Of a stretch of 64,000 bases of DNA, positions 6,457-64,000 are shown one piece after another (positions within the stretch are counted from its first letter, which is position 1; every line of letters starts with the position of its first letter). The DNA is from Pseudovirgaria hyperparasitica (taxonomy: Eukaryota > Ascomycota > Dothideomycetes > Acrospermales > Acrospermaceae), in assembly GCF_010093815.1 (NCBI RefSeq), contig NW_022985550.1:75074-139073 (forward strand), written 5' to 3'. The position numbers and the translations under genes were made by a program. The notes beneath the pieces were generated by a model. The model searched no databases. It was not told the origin of the DNA and saw nothing but the letters and a program-made list of their open reading frames with translations.

Positions 6457-7198
6457 TCACGACTTTTCACCTTTGTTTGTTGAAAGGAAAAGCACACATG
6501 CCGCGACGATGGACACTGCAACTACAGTGAAGACCTGTAGTAGTAGTCAATACCAAGTCAGATTACAGGTAGAGTCGGCATTACAATCTCAGTTTTCCAG
6601 CCTGACTGGACTAGAGCCATGCGCTTGCTGTATCTCGTGACAGTCTTGACATAATTGGCAACACCAGACACCAGACATGCCAGCGCTAGTAGCCAGAAAA
6701 CAATACCTAGAGGGAGGGCTATTCTTTTCTCTTAAAAACATGTGTTAGTATCGCCTTTAATACTCCTGTTTGAGTGCCGGCAGACGTACCAAGCTTAGAC
6801 GGCTGCTGCTTCAAGTGAAATGACACCAGGATGGCGACCGATACAATTGCGAGGTAGACAGCGAGACGAAGCCAAGATAAAAATGCTTTTTACAAACGCT
6901 CATTAGTGAACTGCAGAGGTTTACTTCGATAGCGCTAGACGTACTTCTCTCATTTGCACAATGATCCCTGGCATCGGATGCATTGTTGTCGAAGAGCAGT
7001 GGGCCTAACAAAGGCCGCTTAGCGAAGACTTCCCCTCGATAGCTGTTATTCCTGATATATTTATGTCAGTAATGAGATCTATATGCACATTGTGATGAAT
7101 GCTGACTGTTTGACCAGAACCGGCCGTCTTGTTAACAAACCGAACACGGGTTTGTAGGTCTCAATATCCGGGCCTGAGAAGACCTGAGTGCTTGACAT
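6457..7198 (-). CDS. DUF202 (YidH-like) three-helix membrane protein, 5 exons
   Basis: Assembled from five exons: 7198-7107, 7051-6945, 6885-6790, 6730-6585 and 6534-6457, giving 172 aa. The phases join without a frame break. Introns are 50-60 nt, with branch points TACTGAC, CTAAT and TACTAAC. The spliced protein carries the fungal DUF202 signature ARDHCANERT-FLSWLRLAVY across the exon 2/3 junction. Three hydrophobic helices follow: AVYLAIVSVAILVSF, ALPLGIVFWLLALACLVSG and VFTVVAVSIVAACVLFL. Between helices 2 and 3 lies the conserved ANYVKTVTRYSKRMALVQSGW. The first donor is GTCAGC, a weaker form. Biochemical function of the family is not known to me; it should lie in an internal or plasma membrane. 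No single open frame covers more than a fraction of it. Confidence 0.85.
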
Positions 7199-7453
7199 GC
7201 TGATTGAACAAGTGAACAACCAAGGTCAATCACGAGCGTTGGACGGATGTTGGAGGTTAACGTTGACGTCGACTTTGTTTCCCCACATCTAGATGAATAC
7301 CTAGCCAAATGCGGCAAAGTGGGCCGCATGGGTCTTGGCAGTTCGTCACTCCGAAAGAGCTCATAGCATAATTTCCATGACGTGACACCACTATCCATAT
7401 ACACTCCACCTTTGCATCGTTTCATGTTAAGAGATCGACGCACGGCCTTAGAG

Positions 7454-8298
7454 ATGACTGTTGACAAATTGAACATTTTTGGCGGCAAGGAGCCATGGAA
7501 CCCCTCTGACTGGACGGCAAGCGACGACCGTGTGCGCGGAGGCTCTTCCCAATCCTATTTTCACGCCAATGCATACGAACCTATAGCACGCTTCTACGGC
7601 GAGCTGGACTACAAGACTCTTGGTGGTGCTGGATTTGCTTCCCAACGTACTACTGGTGAGAATCGTTCGTGGGATCTGAGCTGCTACACCGGCATCGAAT
7701 TGGACATTGAGAAAGCCGACACGAAGCGCTACACTTTCAATCTCAAGGACGAATTACTGGCAAGGGATCCAGAAAATGGACGAGAGCAGGCGAGTGTGTC
7801 GTATGAATACGACTTTGAAATTTCAGATGCTCAGGCGCAGGCGGAGAGCACTGTCATCTACATTCCGTTTGACAACCTGAATGCTACGTATCGTGGCAGG
7901 GAGAAGGAAGATGCACCGCCACTGAACACGACGAGTGTAAAGCGATTCAGTATCATGATGAGAAGCTTTTTCGCAACTCAAGAGGGGCCATTCTCTCTGT
8001 CTATCAGATCCATCTCTGCTGTGGCTAGGCGGAAAGATGGGGAGGATGCGCGGTCAATGGTCAGTGAGAAGGACACCGGCGTGTTGGTTCCACGGTCAGC
8101 AAAGTGGATGGTACGTTCTCAACTATCCTAACCCTGATGTTGCGATCGCTAACGAAGACGGAGCTGTAGCTTGCACCAGCAGACCATGGCAATTGGAGAC
8201 AATTTGGTCAGTCTACGCTGGGGGTCATTGCCGGCATCACAGTCTTTGGATTTCTCGCGGTTGGTCTGCTGCACTTGACTGTGTGTAAGCGAGGCTGA
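7454..8298 (+). CDS. CIA30-domain protein with C-terminal membrane helix (2 exons)
   Basis: Exon 1 is 7454-8110, the intron 8111-8169 (donor GTACGT, branch GCTAAC, acceptor GTAG) and exon 2 8170-8298, giving 261 aa. An in-frame ATG at 7424 is an alternative start. Residues 3-205 match the CIA30 fold: FGGKEPWNPSDWTASDDRVRGG at the start, then GIELDIEKADTKRYTFNLKD and YIPFDNLNATYRG. In Neurospora, CIA30 is a mitochondrial complex I assembly factor, but many fungal proteins with this domain lack targeting signals. This one has no evident presequence. Exon 2 adds STLGVIAGITVFGFLAVGLL, a single membrane helix ending in a short KRG tail, which suggests a tail-anchored protein. Its precise role is uncertain. 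Confidence 0.8.
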
Positions 8299-9897
8299 AG
8301 GCTGTGCGTGACAAGCAGCGTGCCGTACAGCATGCTTTCAATGAAAATTTGTACAAAGTTGATATGCAACCTAAGAACGAAAAACTAAAATGGCAAAAGG
8401 GCAGATCATTTCTACATAATACTGAATTCTTTTCTTGACTCGAGATGTCCGTGCGCTTATCAGGTTCACAGGATTGGTTCCAATGCGGTCGGAGCCGCGA
8501 TCCGCTTCAGGAACTCAAATCCACTATCCATTCTATTCGCTCAACTGGGTCATCAACATATGAGAGGGGCAATGTATGTCGCGCCAGAGCTGCAAGTCGA
8601 AAGCAACTGCGTACGCTCATCCTCAATCACCACAGCTTACCAGTTTTGGTCAAGAGAACGCACAAAGCTCGACCGAAAGCACTGATTGGATAAAACTCCT
8701 TTGTGGCCTCTAAGCTTGGACCTGAGTGAAGCCGAAAATGGCCAACGAGATCCACTCAACAAGAACAGATAGGTACCTGGAATGGAGAATACACGTGGCC
8801 GCCTGACAAACCTGCTGCTACATTGGAACCTGGATGACTCCCGAACGAGGAATATTAGCCCCGTCTATGGCAGTGGCAGTCCAATTTCAAATCGAAAGCC
8901 TATATTGATGCAGTCGATATACGTATCGCAATCGCGGTAGCTCCAATTAGCTTATCTGGATCAATACCCGGGAAATACACAAACATGGCGCCAAAGTAGA
9001 ACCCATCAGCCATGTCCTGATCACCGGCAGGTCGGGACATCGGTCTTCGATAGAGGATTTTAGTGTCCGAAGCAGGCTTCCTATTGGCCAATGGTATTCA
9101 CAAGCACTCCGTTCCCGCTCCGGCTCCATCGGGGTTTTTCGCAATCGCGATGTATTGTAGAGAGATCCATGACTTCGGTGGCGCGGTATCCTTTCCCTAA
9201 ACACATTGCTCAGGTCCCTCTCGCTCTCTTTTATGTGGGCTGTGGGGCCGTCGATGCTACGCGAACTGGTAGGTGAGATTTGCTCTACGTGAAACGCAAA
9301 TGCGCTGCGAGAGATTTTGCGGCTGTTTCTCCCAGCCTGGGCATGACGCTGCGACAAATTCCGACTCTGCTCAGCTTTCTCCGCATGCATGCATCATCTT
9401 CATTATCTTCCTTTGCCTATACTACTGCTGCTTTGCCTTTCCACTGGAATGTTTGCGGCGCTTTCCTTTAGCGATTTGCGAGATGCGACTTGCTCACAAT
9501 TCTCCTTCACCAACCATATAGCGATCAGCAACCCTTTCGCGCGACTACTATAGTGCTCATTTAGCTTCTTGGTTGGCGCGATTCGCGACGGCTCGTAGAA
9601 AGTGGAGCTTACACACTAAATACTTACGCTTTATGTTCCCCCAATGCATTAGCATCATCCATCATTCTTAGTATTCTCAGTATCGTCAACTCAGCAACAT
9701 TTTGAGGTAGAGAGTAGACGCCTGGTGTTTGCGGCTGCTAACAGATGCTTGGAAACAACAGCAACGTTGGAGATATAACATTATTCTGGAAATCGCCTGC
9801 ACTATACACCCACCTTTTCAATTACGTAGTTCACATATAAGTAACGGGCACATCTACGATATCACTTGGCGCGACGCCAGTGGCGCCCCAATACAAG
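8299..9897. other. 1.6-kb intergenic region
   Basis: Lies between the CIA30-domain gene and the start of the MFS transporter, on the same strand. It is probably the 3' UTR of the first and the promoter of the second. Several open frames of 60-147 codons exist on both strands, but none shows a domain or coherent splice structure. Confidence 0.45.
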
Positions 9898-11956
9898 ATG
9901 GACTCTTCACAGCAAATATCCGAGAAAGATCTCGAAAGAGGGAATTCAGGGAGTAAGATCTCACACTGGCGATTAGTCTGGGAGCAAGGCCTTGTCACCG
10001 ACGAGGTGCGGAATGCATCATATAAGGGCAGCGGAACCGAAGACGATCCGTATCTAGTAGAATGGCTGGAGCACGATCCAAGAAACCCATTGTTATGGCC
10101 GTCATGGAAGAAATGGGTTATGGCGCTGACGATGGCGTTTGCGACACTGGCAGTGTCGTTCTGTTCAAGTGCTTATGCGGGAGGTATGTGCCATCTCATC
10201 GGACTCGATATTGAGAGAAGAGAAAGGCTGATTATTACAGGTGAGACGGAGATGGTTGTGGAGTTTGGGGCAAGCGAGGAGCTCGTGACTGCAGGACTGT
10301 CAGTTTTTGTCCTTGGGTTCGCCCTAGGTACGTCGTTGTATAACATCCAAATGAATTCTGCAGTAGTTGACGTTCACAGGACCTATGTTTTGGGGACCTC
10401 TTTCTGAGCTATACGGCCGCCAGTATCTTTACATTTTTACCTTTGGTGCATTCGCGGCGTTCAATGCGGGCTTCGCCGGCGCGCAAAACATCTGGACTGT
10501 TATCATCTGCCGCTTCTTCGCGGGATCCTTTGGGTCGTCGCCATTGACGAATGCCGGAGGTGTTATCGCAGATATGTTTCCGGCGAAAGAACGTGGCCTC
10601 GCCATGAGCGTGTTTTCCGTCGCTCCATTCATGGGCCCAGTCCTCGGGCCCATCATTGGAGGCTTTCTGGGCATGACGGAAGGCTGGCGGTGGATTGGCG
10701 GCTTAATGGCAATCTTCTCCGGCTTCATCTGGGTCGTCGGCAGTATCATCTCGCCTGAGACCTACTCCCCAGTTCTCCTCCGTCGCCGCGCCCAAAATCT
10801 GTCCAAGATCACAGGTAAGGTCTACGAATCGCGAGCCGATCATGACCGAGGCAAGGTCACCTTTGTCAAAGTCATGTCTACCTCCCTCAAGCGCCCCTGG
10901 ATCCTACTCTTCAAGGAGCCCATCGTGCTCCTGCTCTCCGTCTACATGGCCATCATCTACGGCACGCTGTACATGCTCTTCGGCGCCTTCCCACAAGTAT
11001 ATCAGCTGGGCCGTGGCTGGTCGCAGGGTATCAGCGGTCTTGCATTCGTAGGTGTCGCCGTCGGCATGCTGATCGCCATGGTATACAACTTCTACGACAA
11101 CGAGCGATACATCCAGGTAGTCGAAGCCGAGGGCGGCTTCGCACCGCCGGAAGCTCGTCTCCCACCAGTCATCATCGGCAGCTTTGCGTTGCCGATCGGC
11201 TTGTTCTGGTTCGCGTGGACAAATAGCCCTAATATACACTGGCTAGTGAGTATTGCGGCAGGTGTTCCGTTCGGATTCGGCATGGTGCTTGTGTTTATGT
11301 CTATCATGAACTATCTGATTGATGCATACACAATCTTTGCCGCGAGTGTGCTGGCGGCGAATTCGATCCTGCGGTCCTTATTCGGTGCGGCATTCCCGCT
11401 ATTCACGACGCAGATGTTTAGACGTCTGGGAATACATTGGGCCAGCACAATACCCGCGTTTCTAGCATTGGCCTGCATGCCGTTCCCGTTCCTATTTTAC
11501 AAGTACGGTGCAGCGATTCGCATGCGGTGCAAATATGCGGCAGAAGCAGATGCGTTCATGGAGAAGATTCGTGGTGATACGAATGACGGGAGAGGTGACG
11601 AGACAAATGACGAGACGAAATTTGAATCAAACGACGATTCAAATCCGGAACTGGATGCAGAAGATGCGGGTCGCCACTCATCGGTGGCGCTGGAGAAGGA
11701 AGAAGAGGCCGAGCAGGAGGCGATGGATTTTTCATACGGGGCTCGGACGGACGAGCTGGTATTGGCGCCCACCAGGACCGATTGCACGCGAGCGGATAGC
11801 AGGTCTGAAAGAAGGTCTCGAGAAGTTTACGATGAAAGCCCGTACGATATCGATCGGGTAAATACGAAGGAGAGCTTCAAAGATAAGAATAGCAGCTTAA
11901 GTCTGAGCACGACTAAGTCAAGAGACTCATCGAAAAGTCCGGCGAAAGAGAGGTGA
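9898..11956 (+). CDS. MFS transporter, DHA1-type, with long acidic tail (3 exons)
   Basis: Exons 9898-10183, 10241-10327 and 10380-11956 give 649 aa. Both introns are phase 1 and splice cleanly. The start is the ATG of MDSSQQISEKDLE. A cytosolic N-terminus ends in DPRNPLLWPSWKKW, the usual lead-in to helix 1. GPLSELYGRQ is the loop 2-3 motif A. MGPVLGPIIGGFLG is the antiporter motif C of helix 5. PETYSPVLLRRRA in the central loop is standard for fungal DHA1 drug/polyamine H+ antiporters. About twelve helices can be counted. After FYKYGAAIR a tail of about 140 residues follows, rich in Asp, Glu, Asn and Ser, much longer than usual. The plasma membrane is the likely site; the substrate is unknown. 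No biosynthetic genes lie beside it. Confidence 0.9.
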
Positions 11957-12039
11957 GATAGAGGTATCATTGGTTTTGAAAGCATAGCGTCATCTCAATT
12001 GTAACGTAAATTGGCACGATTGTGTGCGGTGTGTACCCA

Positions 12040-13122
12040 TCATATCTCGAGAAGTGCCCAGGTGCTGTCGTCAACAGTTGTATAGATCATGCCTGCAGCC
12101 AACAAGTCCTCGCCACCCTTGTACACATCTGCAGGATCCATTCTTGTCTCACTCGCAATGACCTGCACATGTAGGCCCTCGTTACTCTGCTGGCTAGTGG
12201 ACAAGCACATAAAAACCTTCTTCGCGTTGGCGCTTAGTCCAGCCATAGATTGTCCACCACTTGCCATGTTCATATTAGTACCAGCCTGCGCGTCATATGT
12301 CCCATTTGTGCCTGTACTCTTCTGTCCTCCATTGAGGGGACCTCTTGTGTAGTGCAGGTGCACGGCTGTCGCCTCAAGCAGATGATAGGAGACTTCGTTA
12401 TAGTCTGTTACTGGCCGTATGATGGTCGCACCGACATGGCGCTTGTTGTTAAAGGACTTCAGTTTTCCGTATACGCGCGCATACTTGTTCTCGGCTAGCT
12501 TTTTTTTTCCTGAGTTATCTGCCTCGCCGAAGGGGGTGGTGGCGTCTGCATCGACCCATTGCTTGACCTCAATCGTTCCCGTACCGTCGTCGAGCTTGTA
12601 TGTAACATTGGTGGCTTGCGTCGAAATGTTGCGAATCTGGCCTACGAAGGTGAGCTATCCGGCGAGGCGATGAAATTAGTCTAGACCTCTTGAAAGTAGA
12701 ATTCTCCGACGAGGCGAATTCAGGAGCGAGGATGGCCAAGTAAAGGTCCCGACGTGCTATGGGCGCATTATATCAATGACATACCTGTGATATTTCTGTG
12801 TCATCTATCTTAAAGTCTCCTTCTTGTGCTGATGGGGGCGCTTCATTTATCTGCTTGATTGTGACTGGCCGGAGTGTGTCTTTGCTACGGTCCTGTTCGC
12901 GATGCTGTCAACTCTCTCGTTTCTGGAACCACAGTGATATGATTCACATACACCTCTTCCAGCACTTGGGCTCTGACTTGAATCTCCAGGGATGAAGCCA
13001 CCACCGCCTGCTCCTCCTTGCGCTCCATAAGATGTCGTCGAGTAGCCACCTTCGTAACCGCCACCGTAATCTGCAAGAGTTAGCTATATGATCAGAACCT
13101 CCTAGCGCATTGACTCACTCAT
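12040..13122 (-). CDS. RFA2: Replication protein A 32-kDa subunit (4 exons)
   Basis: Exons 13122-13119 (only ATGA), 13070-12952, 12892-12785 and 12654-12040 give 281 aa, normal for the family. The N-terminus MNYGGGYEGGYSTTSYG plus a Gly/Ser-rich stretch is the phosphorylated tail. DTLRPVTIKQI leads into the OB fold, with FVGQIRNISTQATNVTYKLDDG, IEVKQWVDAD and KLKSFNNKRHVGATIIRPV (residues about 75-185). The C-terminal winged helix is at about 215-281 (NEGLHVQVIA to the end), the region that binds repair and replication partners. RPA2 acts in the nucleus with RPA1 and RPA3 to coat single-stranded DNA. It is divergent from a J-protein gene. The short shared region contains an ACGCGT-type inverted repeat, suggesting G1/S control. 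Intron 3 is 130 nt. Confidence 0.93.
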
Positions 13123-13437
13123 GTTCTCGTTTTGCTGCTGAACAGATTAGAAGAGTGAAATGGACAGAATTGTAAGTTGCAAGTTGTAATGCTACATCAG
13201 AGCGCGGGGCTAATTGAAACGCGCCAAGGCAAAAGACGCGTTTCTTGCCTCAGAGCTGTCAGGTCAGCACGTGATGACGTACCGCAACTACTATCTCATT
13301 ACCTAAATCGATAAGGCTAGCCTTGCTGACGATCAGTTTTCAACCACCAACAACCACCACTACGACACTCTATAAGCCTATTTCTTCCACACACACACAA
13401 CCAAGCAAGTCTCCCATAGTGGGCGCAGTCCCCAAAT
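13123..13437. promoter_or_regulatory. Shared divergent promoter of RFA2 and the J-protein gene
   Basis: The 315-bp region separates the two start codons. It contains the ACGCGT inverted repeat listed separately and a CACGTGATGACGTA segment near 13268-13281, which includes an E-box and a CRE-like TGACGT. No TATA box is obvious. Confidence 0.55.
13216..13244. promoter_or_regulatory. Inverted repeat with MCB (ACGCGT) and E2F-like core
   Basis: GAAACGCG (13216-13223) and its exact reverse complement CGCGTTTC (13237-13244) flank a 13-nt spacer. The right arm includes the palindrome ACGCGT, the MluI cell-cycle box bound by MBF (Mbp1/Swi6 type) in yeasts. The left arm runs into CGCGCCAA, the complement of an E2F-like TTGGCGCG. 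It lies about 95-120 bp upstream of the RFA2 start, fitting cell-cycle control; binding is inferred. Confidence 0.5.
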
Positions 13438-59157: not shown

Positions 59158-60858
59158 TCACAAAATATCCGCCACAGCACCCACCAGAACCGGAAACCCA
59201 TCCCCACCAAACCGCTGCACAACCCTCGTACTCCCACCCTTGACCATCGGCAACGGCAAATCCATCTCCGACAACACCCCCTTCCCCACCCGACTAACAT
59301 GAAAGTCCTCGGGCAACTGAATCTCAATCTCCACGCCCCACGCCAGAATCAGCCGCGTAACCTTGCCATAAAATCGCTCCCGCCGCAGCGTCGCCGGCGT
59401 CCCCTCCTGCAGCGGAATCCCCCCTAGCGAATGATTATCCCCGACGTCCCAGAGCCCGCGCGCCACGCCCTGCGCATACGGCTTCTGGAGAAAGGTAATG
59501 GAGGCAGTAAGACTGTTGATGAAAGCCGCGGCGTCCGGATCGGCAGTTATGTCCTGGGGTGCGGGCGCGTCGTCGAGGGCCGGGTGGCCCAGGCTGGCCC
59601 AGGAGCGCTTCCAGATGTTTGCGAGGGGGATTTCGTAGGGCCCGTCGCGGGGGATGGGGTTGTTTTTGTTGGCGGGCCCGGCTTGTTTGATCCAGTATGT
59701 TGCTGTGGTTTCGTAGTTTTGGAGGACGTATTCGGGCCGGTAGAAGATTAGGGTTGGGTCGATGGGGGTGCCGGGGGGGTGGGCTTGGCGGGAGAGCCAG
59801 TTGTCGTCGATGGCGACGACTTTCATGTTGTTGCTGGGGGGTGGGTGGTGTTAGTTGGTGTTTTTGTTTGGGATTTAGGGGCTAGGAGGGGGGATGAAAT
59901 ACCCAAGCTGGGGCTCGACGCGCATGTCTGCTAGGCGGACGGAGTCGAGCTGTTTCGAGATGCTGGATAGGGAGGGGTCGAGGAGGCGTGTATAGGACGC
60001 CTGTGCCTGCTCTTCCTTCTTCCAGGCCTCGATGTAGCCGGTGTCGCTCTCGATGAAGTGGATTAGGGAGGAAGGGTCGGGCGTGGTCTTGGATGTGTCG
60101 GCGCGCGTCTTGATATATGCCCGTCGCGCCGTCTCCCAGGCTTGGTTCTTGATGTTCTTGCAGTCCAGCAGCGTGCGGCGGGCGTCGATGAGTTTCTCCG
60201 AGGGATTGCCCTGGTTGAGAAGATGGAGCATGAGAAACCGGACATGTAATCATCATGATGCTACTACCCCTTTCCGACACAGACAGACAGACCGACAGAC
60301 AGACAGGAACACAGACAGACATACCTCGCCCGCAAACTTCAGATATCTAGACACCATCGAGAAGCAATCAATCACTACACATGTCCCCTTTTTCTCACAT
60401 GCGCACAGAGCACACATCGCAGGACAGGACAGGATTGGGACTCACGAGCTCAGAAACTCAAAATACGACACCCCGTTCGCGGCATAGAACGGCCGGTTGA
60501 CCTGCTGCATCGCGTCGCCCTGCACATACGTCTGGTAGTTTGTCACCTCGGGCGGGCACAGCTCGCCGCCGAGCACGCCGATCTGGCTCAGGTCGCCGAG
60601 GAAGAGCGCACGCCCTTCGTCGTACAGGCTGCCCGACGGGGTGAACTTGTTCTTGAGGAAGTAGCCCATGGCTTTCCAGAAGAAGGGCGGTTGTTGGCGT
60701 GTCGCTAGGATCGGGGCTGCGATGTTGGTCGGGAGGTTTGGGGAGAAGCTGGGCCTCAGGGTGCCGGCTTGCTGGGAGAGGTCTGGCTGTAGAGAGGAGA
60801 AGAGGCCATCGTCGATGGCGTGTGAGGTGTTGGGGTCTTGGGGGTTGGGAGTGGCCAT
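59158..60858 (-). CDS. Unknown conserved-architecture protein, paralogue A (4 exons)
   Basis: Exons 60858-60446, 60346-60325 (22 nt), 60210-59903 and 59833-59158 give 472 aa. Intron phases are 2, 0, 2. I do not recognise the family. N-terminal residues 1-137 include FWKAMGYFLKNKF and GDLSQIGVLGG. FYAANGVSYFEFLSS closes exon 1, YLKFAGE is exon 2, and a charged helical segment (EKLIDARRTLLDCK, ETARRAYIKTRAD) follows. The C-terminal third looks mixed alpha/beta (YRPEYVLQNYETTATYW, GKVTRLILAWGVEIEIQLP). There is no signal peptide or clear membrane helix. Exon structure and helical pattern match the divergent gene at 62930, so the two are read as ancient paralogues. Function unknown. Confidence 0.75.
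60275..60320. repeat. (GACA)n microsatellite in intron 2 of paralogue A
   Basis: Array of GACA units with CCGA and GGAA interruptions. It lies directly downstream of the 22-nt exon on the minus strand. Confidence 0.85.
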
Positions 60859-61875
60859 TACAGCTGTGAAGGGGGGTTGCTTTTTGCTGGGGATGGGAGG
60901 TATGGATGTCTGTGGTCTTGCTGGTTGGCTTTAAGTACATGCTCGAGTCGTAGCATGGCTTGGTCTTCCATTTAGTGTTGTCGTTAGGGATGCTGGTGGA
61001 GTCTGTCTAAACGTATGAGCCTGAGTAACGTTATACTGCCAAGTGAATAGTCGTCTTCATTTCATATCTACTAGCGGCGCTCAGCACTCTGTGCTAGGGT
61101 CGGTACTTACGTTCCATGCGGCAATCATCGATTGTTATCCAATGGGTCGCATTCGGATACAGCAGTAGCATGAGCCTAGTATCTCTGGATGGCAGCAACG
61201 GGTCAGACCCAGACTGTGTACAAGATCCAAGCTGGCATGTTGACCCGAGCCTCTTCCAATCAGAAGCCGTATCATCACGGTGTTGTCGTCACACACATTG
61301 CATGCCTTACTGTTCCCACATGCATGAATGTCGCAACCAGAAACGTTTGGAGACTGAGATCGTCCTCGGAGGGGCCCAGACGCTGCTGGAATATTCAGCT
61401 GACGATGTCTACGCCCAACCCACAATTAAAGGAGCAGTACAGGTCCCGCATGTATAGTGGCCGGACCGCTCAAGCTACTACTGTCCCTGTATGCAGGTTA
61501 AGCCCTTTCCGGTGCCGGCGTGCATGTAATAGACCTCTGCCGAAGCTTTACTGTACTTGCATGCATAACGGCGCTAGCATACTTGATAGTCCCATATACT
61601 GTGATGGCTTTTTCACTTTCCCCATAGGCCCTTGCTGCGCTTCCAAGTCTGTCAAACTGTATATGCCCACGCTGAATCCGAATGGTTTCCTGCTCCTATA
61701 TGCTTTAGGTTGGGTTCGATAGAACTAGAGTCCTCGCCTCTAGTCCTATGCCATCTTGTGGACCTGGGACGTTTCGGGAAGGGATCATGTGCTAGGAGAG
61801 GGTTTTTCGTATCGAGTTGAAGTCAGAAAGAGGTTGAGTCTAGCAGCTATTTCATAATGGAACGGGAGCCGGGGG

Positions 61876-61951
61876 GCCAGTCCCGTCATGACTGGCATAC
61901 TTGGCGTCTTGTTCTGGGACGGGATCCGGGACGCGCGGTATGGGGATCCCG
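61876..61951. repeat. Two inverted repeats (predicted hairpins)
   Basis: GCCAGTC/GACTGGC (61876-61882, 61890-61896) with a 7-nt spacer, and CGGGATCC/GGATCCCG (61920-61927, 61944-61951) with a 16-nt spacer. Both are perfect. They could be dimeric regulator sites. Confidence 0.55.
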
Positions 61952-62810
61952 CTGGGGGCTACAACACTAGCAGGCTGGAAAAGACTTCTGATTGGTCTAC
62001 GGGTGTGACTTTGACCCAAGTAAACATGACCTGCTCCTAACCTTATGCGATCTTACACATTCGGTTCGGGCAGCCGCCTGCGCAATAATAACATTAACAC
62101 AGCGCTCCTTCCAACAGAATCCAATCGGAGAATATCAGTCTGGAGACTTACCCCTCAATCACGATGTACAGATTGCTTGGCCAGTCCATACTCACTTGAA
62201 AGACTGACTTACTGTACCGACATGCATACGCATTGCTTCCTTGAGCGCATTACCGGTCCCACATATCTTACTCTGCCTGCATGATCTACTTCTTCATAGC
62301 CATAGTGAGTAGCTGGGCTTCGACAGCGCAATGAGCGGAATGTTTCCCCATCTCGCGATGGCCGCTACCCATTACGACAGTGCGGTACCGGGTGTTCTCT
62401 TCTTCACCATCCATCAAGGTATCTAGTCCTACGGGATTTTTGCATACGCCTGAGCGCTTATTCGACCATGGTATGGAATTTGTAACCAATCCCTGAGCAT
62501 TGAATCCGCTCCATGGACACAAGTAACATGGTCTTGCTCAACCTCGCCGGGGATTTTGCTTGATTCAACGTAGCGGCTGGCTGGCTGAGAGAAATGTGGC
62601 GAGCTGAGATATGCGACTCGATGGGAGATGTTGTGACTAGCTAAGAGAAATGTGGCTCAATGGAAGACATGCATGCCAGATGTGCCTAGAGACTAAAGAG
62701 TTATTGCGGTGGGGATGAGATCGGACCAAGTCTGGATGAGAGCAGCGCAGACTGCGGTATCTACTAGCCAGCAGAGGAGAAGAGTATTGACAAGCGAGGA
62801 CAATGGTATG

Positions 62811-62818
62811 TATATAAA
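62811..62818 (+). promoter_or_regulatory. TATA box of paralogue B
   Basis: TATATAAA lies 112 bp upstream of the ATG, just before GGGCCC and a pyrimidine/CA-rich leader. It is one of the clearest TATA elements in the window and suggests a strongly inducible promoter. Confidence 0.65.
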
Positions 62819-62929
62819 GGGCCCACGGAAGCTCGAAAGTGCAGGACATCAACACACACTCCTCACAACTCCAACATAGCAAAGAACTCTTTCACACAAA
62901 GTCCACCATCAATCCAAGCCATCTCCAGA

Positions 62930-64000
62930 ATGTCTGCCGAGAAGGTCAACCAACTCTTCTGGCTCAACTACGGCCAAGCTATCAAAGACAAAGCCGGAGC
63001 GAACTTTGGTTCCACAGGGGTCTTCTTCCTTGCCTCCGAGACTCAGAAAGGACCTCTGGCTGGCAATGATGTCCTGGATGTATACACCAACAGGGGTATC
63101 TATGATGTGGGCAACAACTTGCTCGCAACCGACAACCTCTTCTACACCCCATCGAGCCTTCACGGTTATGTGGAAGCACTCTCCACGTGAGTAAAATCCC
63201 ATCAAGCACTGCTAGCCAAGTACATTTTGCTAACGAGCATAGATTCCTCTGGTGGGTGGATCTCGTAAGTGGACAGCCCCTATCCAAGCACATGAATCAT
63301 CCCAGCCAACTGACGACGACAGGGCGGCAAATCCAACGTGAACCTCGACTCAGCAGAGCGACAGGCCCTGCTCGACCTCGACGCGTCGCAGAAGTGGCAG
63401 CTAACGGAGATGCGCAAGGCCGCAGCCCAGTTCAAGGAGGAGAAAGAGCTGGGCCTCGTCCCGACTGGTGACTTCTACGACTGGGTGCAGAACGGCAATG
63501 CCACGGCCTACAGCGCCGCCGTGAAGGACGTCAAGGACAAAGGCCAGGCTCTCGCCATGATCCAGGGTCAAAAGGCCGGGCCCATGTCCCCAGCACGCGA
63601 CGCTGATCTGTCTAAACTGACAAAGGCCCTCGACCAGTCCAAGGACTACCCCGGGTAAGCATCTATCTTATCCTCCCCTCGAGCAAACCCCGCCCCCGGC
63701 CGTCTGCTGACACTCACCTAGCTTCAACTTCGCATCCGCCATGGGCAACCCGCCCAACCCGGCCGAGCTCATCCGGAAGCAGAAGTCCGGCGAGAAAGTG
63801 CCGGACCCGCCAACGTCGCGCATCCCGGTGTACAACGCGCCACTATACAAGAAGGCGGTGCAGGACGCCATGCAGTATGCCATTGACTCGAAGCACGAGC
63901 CCAAGAACTCCGTTGGCATCGAGATCGACCTGGGCAAGAGCACGTCCGACTTCCACTTCGGCCACACGCAGGGCGGCGCATCCGTCGACGTCAGCTACGG
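62930..64000 (+). CDS. Unknown conserved-architecture protein, paralogue B (partial, at least 4 exons)
   Basis: Exons 62930-63186, 63243-63264 (22 nt), 63323-63654 and 63722 onwards; the window ends inside exon 4. At least 330 residues are visible. Intron phases are 2, 0, 2, as in paralogue A. It opens MSAEKVNQLFWLNYGQAI, then GANFGSTGVFFLASE, LDVYTNRGIYDVGNNLL, FYTPSSLHGYVEALST and the micro-exon FLWWVDL. Helical segments follow (LDSAERQALLDLDAS, TAYSAAVKDVKDKGQAL), then FNFASAMGNPPNPAELI and DFHFGHTQGGASVDVS, which may begin a beta-rich C-terminal part. I recognise it only as a type of uncharacterised fungal protein. No signal peptide, so it is probably intracellular. A helical pore-former or scaffold is conceivable but unsupported. 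Confidence 0.8.

Follow-up and report, generated by a model that had tools for sequence, protein, structure and literature searches.

A divergent gene pair of the fungus Pseudovirgaria hyperparasitica has paired relatives in soil bacteria: a candidate two-subunit protein system

The end of a 64,000-nucleotide (nt) stretch of DNA from the ascomycete Pseudovirgaria hyperparasitica (assembly GCF_010093815.1, contig NW_022985550.1, positions 75,074 to 139,073 of the forward strand; hereafter the window) holds two head-to-head genes, here called A and B, which a first-pass annotation had described as old duplicates. Comparison with bacterial sequences indicates that the family pair is one that extends beyond fungi, into a few soil bacteria, where intron-free relatives of B are found on Cupriavidus plasmids and in Pseudomonas and are followed by a paralogous second gene. 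A and B probably work together, since the paralogous pair is also adjacent in these bacteria, and we read them tentatively as partner subunits of a two-component system whose protein family has no name yet. The bacterial paired relatives of B, and a fourth intron of B that A does not share, are new here, both having been invisible to the first-pass annotation.

Relatives of A and B in soil bacteria

A tblastn search with B against 72,556 plasmid records returned three matches, all from Cupriavidus, at 25% identity over 88-89% of B, the best of them at E 2e-4. Pairwise comparison of B with the three plasmid-encoded proteins (the products of what we call gene 1) gave E values of 2e-16 to 7e-9, and a hidden Markov model of eight gene-1 proteins found B at E 1.3e-20 (search space of one). 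Use of the adjacent gene 2 as query recovered the same three plasmid records as the search with B, and A as query returned nothing from the plasmid set as a whole. A pattern-based scan of 84,980 species (one genome each), with patterns taken from B aligned to a pair of gene-1 proteins from bacteria, located three loci in Cupriavidus and another three in Pseudomonas. Six genomes in a sample of 398 from Pseudomonas carried a gene-1 locus, two of the six having already been met in the species-wide scan; a family-level sample held two carriers among 299 genomes, a count that includes the genome on which it was centred, and the sole carrier in a phylum-wide sample of 398 genomes was likewise its centre genome. 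No match was found in phages, and two pattern scans of viral contigs gave no relative.

Gene 2 was located downstream of gene 1, on the same strand and in tandem, at all 14 bacterial loci, an orientation unlike the divergent arrangement of the fungal pair. A response regulator gene lay upstream of gene 1 at each of the 14 loci and was preceded by a histidine kinase gene at 13, no kinase being found at the sole exception, L047. Pfam assigned HisKA_3/HATPase_c to the three kinases scanned and Response_reg/GerE to all four regulators scanned; NarL type is our own label for the regulators at the 14 loci. Across the loci, gene 1 encodes 452-454 amino acids (aa) and gene 2 360-437 aa (453 and 405-431 aa, respectively, in the Cupriavidus plasmid loci), and the two are paralogues (E about 1e-15 by blastp; by hhalign, probability 99.5 and E 2.2e-22). 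They are separated, with no overlap, in the loci read (7218 to 7309 in L012 and 7359 to 7439 in L018). In the gene lists of eight loci the flanks were alike in close relatives (L046/L050 and L048/L049) and otherwise looked different.

Between Cupriavidus (L012, L014) and Pseudomonas (L018, L019, L020), gene 1 is much the better conserved, at about 66-68% identity, as against some 35-39% along most of gene 2. In Cupriavidus basilensis OR16 (L016), gene 2 matches in two reading frames, 6999-8684 and 7463-8419. In L015 (Cupriavidus sp. LEh25), Pvc16-like and contractile tail-sheath genes begin roughly 1 kb downstream of the pair (9695-13266); because no such genes were seen in the L012 gene list, the comparison in Cupriavidus being limited to these two loci, a reading of the pair as injection-system cargo was set aside provisionally.

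The bacterial genes also bear on the 22-nt second exon of B. Together with its split codon this exon encodes TFLWWVDL, and the intron-free gene 1 of a Cupriavidus locus (L014) encodes TFLDWVDL at the same place, a segment from which one of the two search patterns that retrieved the bacterial loci was derived. Because its peptide matches this bacterial signature, the 22-nt exon of B is read as real coding sequence, the bacterial match standing in for RNA sequencing; loss of a 22-nt exon from the transcript would shift the reading frame. The corresponding exon of A encodes SYLKFAGE, which is less like the bacterial sequence, and its predicted coding status rests on its pairing with B.

Membership of A in the same family was assessed by profile comparison. 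A profile built from 17 bacterial sequences only gave B 34.7 bits and A 17.2 bits (E 1.3e-4 for 1000 targets), as against 5.6 bits for the best of 2000 shuffled versions of A, the aligned region being A103-305. When B was added to the bacterial profile, A reached 24.7 bits and the best shuffle 4.4 bits. A profile of gene-1 proteins only gave A 2.2 bits, and one of two differently aligned profiles of gene-1 proteins plus B found A at E 8.7e-8 (search space of one). An hhalign comparison of A with gene 1 plus B spanned residues 55-472 at E 5e-4 and a probability of 31.7%. In a decoy test, eight of the 205 decoy open reading frames were true family members and were scored as such. The C-terminus of A, FPVLVGAV, is similar to the PVLLGVIS end of bacterial proteins. 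By these comparisons the membership of A in the bacterial family is well supported, its detailed alignment less so.

Paralogy and descent of the fungal pair

Blastp aligned A with B at E 2e-6, with 26% identity over 124 positions (A51-171/B1-119); the roughly 50 N-terminal residues of A that precede the alignment have no counterpart in B. None of 500 shuffled versions of B reached the real score in either global (z 8.2) or local alignment (z 8.7). The old duplication, first proposed from introns, is thus backed by sequence as well, through blastp, shuffles and profiles. Splice sites re-read from the sequence gave intron phases of 2, 0, 2 in A and 2, 0, 2, 2 in B, and bore out the earlier description of three phase-matched introns, of a second coding exon of 22 nt in both genes, and of a third intron that splits a Gly codon between GG and C, with Asn two residues on (Gly-Asn-Asn-Met in A and Gly-Phe-Asn-Phe in B). 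An alignment of eight rows (A5) that took no account of introns nevertheless puts each of the three common introns of A and B in a single column (89, 96 and 217), and all eight rows have the Asn that follows intron 3. Across 16 other alignments introns 1 and 2 coincided exactly in 12 and stood 4 and 6 columns apart in four, and intron 3 coincided in seven and was offset by 2 to 13 columns in nine.

The claim of a fully conserved intron architecture holds for the first three introns and has to be limited to them, because intron 4 of B (phase 2, about 64139-64223, outside the window) has no match at that place in A. The codon that it cuts is a Trp, invariant across all eight rows of A5. The introns of A (60445-60347, 60324-60211 and 59902-59834; 99, 114 and 69 nt) are each a multiple of three in length, unlike the first three of B (56, 58 and 67 nt). 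Single-protein searches of this fungal genome, the one genome that the fungal side covers, found no further copies of A or B above chance; one weak match of B elsewhere in the genome stood at E 0.56. The combined evidence supports A and B as ancient paralogues that would have arisen by an old duplication.

Which fungal gene corresponds to which bacterial gene was approached through a tree and through residue patterns. The tree comprised 19 rows, with A taken without its first 50 residues, the two proteins of L020 dropped as near-copies, and the pairs of L013, L046, L049 and L055 and gene 2 of L016 left out. In the best tree A joined gene 2 and B joined gene 1 (81/98, a support value that is not starred), both fungal proteins being on very long branches, and the result is suggestive only. 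The same 19 rows were scored for alternation of polar and apolar residues. For B and all nine gene-1 proteins only 0-12 of 500 shuffles were as high as the real sequence, and in B and its bacterial counterpart the alternating segments fall largely in the C-terminal half; the corresponding counts were 185 of 500 for A and 88 to 486 of 500 for six of the eight gene-2 proteins. This asymmetry leans towards A being gene 2 and B being gene 1. If these equivalences hold, the shared introns imply that the duplication took place in a eukaryote before transfer; otherwise, fungi and bacteria would each have duplicated the gene separately.

The latter history, in which one gene crossed kingdoms and was duplicated independently on each side, so that A is not gene 2 and B is not gene 1, is a real possibility that we would stop short of calling probable. 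The three shared introns suggest that the gene was duplicated in a eukaryote once it had acquired introns, a topology uniting A and B was not rejected (p-AU 0.35), a single blastp run joined A to B at E 1.6e-5 and to gene 2 and gene 1 at best at E 1.3 and E 0.06, respectively, and A was not picked out by a profile of gene-2 proteins only. Set against this are the pairing in the best tree and the alternation asymmetry, which mostly runs in the same direction in the fungal and bacterial pairs. A bolder proposal, in our estimate unlikely, is that a fungus or other eukaryote passed a complete two-subunit weapon to soil bacteria in one piece. It draws on the shared introns, which place the duplication in an intron-bearing ancestor, and on the pairing in the best tree; if both hold, the pair was duplicated in a eukaryote and entered bacteria intron-less, where it gained a kinase/regulator switch and reached large plasmids.

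Possible joint function of A and B

A and B are homologous and adjacent, are the sole copies found in the genome by single-protein searches, and have bacterial relatives that are likewise paired, and on this basis they are read as the two subunits proposed above. Their linkage suggests that they most likely form a hetero-oligomer and would act only together. The alternation in B and in gene 1 could reflect amphipathic beta hairpins that insert into or line a membrane, and A and most of its counterparts, which lack the alternation enrichment, may dock or regulate. No strong hydrophobic N-terminal stretch was seen by hydropathy in the four proteins examined, A and B included, and because of this lack of a signal-peptide-like N-terminus, release by lysis or by an unconventional route is assumed. 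Expression in bacteria would presumably be switched by the adjacent kinase/regulator pair, and in the fungus may start from a divergent promoter that serves both genes and carries the repeated element. As to use, a binary protein serving as a weapon or in defence against competitors or grazers would be the likeliest. As a whole, this joint reading of a heteromer with amphipathic beta strands in B and gene 1, and with the membrane of another organism as its target, is one that we favour tentatively, at somewhat less than even odds.

Several points weigh against it. Two of the three plasmid matches of B were not significant alone (E 0.2 and 0.1), and because the bacterial loci were retrieved through gene 1, the linkage of the pair is conditional on gene 1. 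A is diverged: the other profile of gene-1 proteins plus B gave it 9.1 bits, less than one shuffled A at 10.4 bits, and the gene-2-only profile gave it -0.4 bits. In the remaining two of the eight gene-2 proteins, too, alternation surpasses that of most shuffled versions (11 and 31 of 500 as high), and alternating patterns are found in any beta-sandwich protein. A single fungus was examined, and neither the pore-forming families of Pfam nor the PDB sequences gave a credible match.

Library searches agree with the earlier statement that the family is one without known function, in that Pfam and NCBIfam do not recognise A or B. At E values up to 1, Pfam returned nothing for A and only Drf_GBD for B (E 0.24); the best values for four bacterial proteins and for the 11 bacterial members of an alignment termed A2 were E 0.012 (DUF1207) and E 0.055, respectively. 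All Pfam matches were under the curated cut-offs where cut-offs were shown, and none was at E 0.01 or better. NCBIfam gave nothing above chance, and among the 11 bacterial members of A2, the only ones submitted, PHROGs matched one (E 0.029, nothing above chance). The best PDB sequence matches, of B to CD2 (E 0.056) and of A (E 0.59), were judged to be chance, as was the best match of one family profile (A4, E 0.61); a second profile (A3) and the bacterial protein P0001 had none. Word-based literature searches found no recognised description of the A/B family.

Three kinds of known two-component system invite comparison. The partners in aegerolysin and MACPF pairs are unrelated to each other, whereas A and B are paralogues and match no Pfam family at E 0.01 or better. 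Such pairs, exemplified by ostreolysin A6/pleurotolysin B, resemble A and B, on the present reading, in being a two-component fungal system acting on membranes (PMC8310357). The binary alpha-helical pore-forming toxins of the YaxAB type are alike in that two partner proteins act together (PMC5935710); A, B, gene 1 and two family profiles had no credible match to a PDB chain, YaxAB structures presumably being among these chains, to judge by the title of that paper. The nearest published comparison found is with the PIP-45/PIP-74/Xpp84-Xpp85 binary pesticidal proteins from Pseudomonas, Cellvibrio and Chryseobacterium, which are two structurally uncharacterised proteins of one operon, reported to be active as pairs and in some cases from Pseudomonas (PMC9937505). 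No InterPro domain is reported for component 1, GDI0005A; the genes of GDI0005A (580 aa) and GDI0006A (467 aa) overlap by 4 nt, and component 2 bears a lipoprotein signal (PMC9937505). In contrast to these features, a gap separates gene 1 from gene 2 in the bacterial loci read and the fungal genes are divergent, no lipoprotein signal was seen by hydropathy in A or in gene 2 of L018 (highest 19-residue N-terminal means of -0.18 and 0.91, respectively), and the bacterial lengths given above are different. Because overlap, lipoprotein signal and lengths differ, we provisionally do not file the pair under the PIP-45/Xpp84-85 group.

A heteromeric complex that attacks nothing, for instance a two-chain enzyme or a complex with a role in structure, storage, spores or stress, is a possible alternative about which we are somewhat more doubtful. 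The linkage facts would fit any obligate heteromer, and the lack of a toxin family match and of a secretion signal by hydropathy would fit it too; the rare and patchy spread (6/398 Pseudomonas genomes and 3/72,556 plasmid records), however, suits an accessory trait better than a housekeeping one. Rather improbable, in our view, is a pair of the allorecognition, killer-protector or toxin-antidote kind, with one paralogue serving to neutralise or to trigger its partner. Strong divergence between head-to-head neighbours and their paired presence would be expected of it, yet the sequences carry no hint of an antidote, both proteins are mutually related, and PADLOC had no match among the 11 bacterial members of A2. 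Finally, coincidence of the A-B similarity and the common intron pattern, to which the low identity over 124 positions and the method-dependent alignment of intron 3 might point, is considered refuted by the shuffle test and the bacteria-only profile, together with the exact coincidence of introns 1 and 2 in 12/16 alignments.

Gene models, intergenic region and genomic setting

The features of the locus are collected in Table 1, in which the part of B beyond position 64000 was taken from the window's own 2.46-Mb contig.

Table 1. Coordinates, in window numbering, of genes A and B and of elements between them
Feature	Position	Strand	Remarks
Gene A	60858-59158	minus	472 aa; four exons, splice sites read from sequence
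Gene A exon 1	60446..60858	minus	413 nt; phase 2 at end
Gene A micro-exon 2	60325..60346	minus	22 nt; aligned with 22-nt exon of B
Gene A exon 3	59903..60210	minus	308 nt
Gene A exon 4	59158..59833	minus	676 nt including stop
Intergenic region	60859..62929		2071 bp, between the two divergent start codons
TACTGTNNNNRCATGCA, exact copy 1	61308..61324	plus	repeated element
TACTGTNNNNRCATGCA, one mismatch	61479..61495	plus	repeated element
TACTGTNNNNRCATGCA, exact copy 2	61549..61565	plus	repeated element
TACTGTNNNNRCATGCA, exact copy 3	62210..62226	plus	repeated element
TATATAAAG	62811-62819		B's side of intergenic region
Gene B	62930 to ~64581	plus	461 aa; five exons, last part beyond window
Gene B exon 1	62930..63186	plus	257 nt; phase 2 at end
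Gene B micro-exon 2	63243..63264	plus	22 nt
Gene B exon 3	63323..63654	plus	332 nt
Gene B exon 4	63722..64000	plus	417 nt; window part given, runs on to ~64138
Gene B exon 5	64224 to ~64581	plus	~358 nt including stop; past window end

The element TACTGTNNNNRCATGCA has five exact occurrences in the 35-Mb genome, three of them in the intergenic region, as against one for a reversed control pattern; a further seven window matches, with two mismatches each, fall outside the intergenic region. Because the motif was picked after the region had been seen, and because local duplication could give such a cluster, it is taken as a lead only. A second direct repeat, of 23 nt and 87% alike, is found on B's side at 62578-62600 and 62634-62656. 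The GC content at third codon positions is 0.79 in A and 0.82 in B, compared with 0.43-0.73 in 18 frames from the first 58 kb of the window, which are stop-to-stop frames of at least 250 codons, some of them overlapping and not genes; strong expression or local composition could account for the high values.

Contamination was considered and rejected, given the 2.46-Mb contig, the presence of introns, and a window shared with a helicase gene (DBP10CT domain) and a gene with a CTE_SPB4 domain. The neighbouring gene at 57222-58742 matches part of a 14-3-3 domain, and beyond this match it has a long tail of low complexity. Downstream of B (L002 8271-9998; L003 2-5140) there are very long open reading frames that encode charged, repetitive sequence, rich in lysine and glutamate, with recurring Trp-containing motifs.

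With these results, an anonymous fungal gene pair becomes, on its likely reading, half of a protein system that spans two kingdoms and goes unrecognised by Pfam and NCBIfam, and a 22-nt fungal exon gains independent evidence as real coding sequence. The shared introns and the bacterial pairing may date the duplication differently, which makes the family of interest as an evolutionary question. The bacterial versions, being compact and intron-free, are suited to expression and to structure solving.

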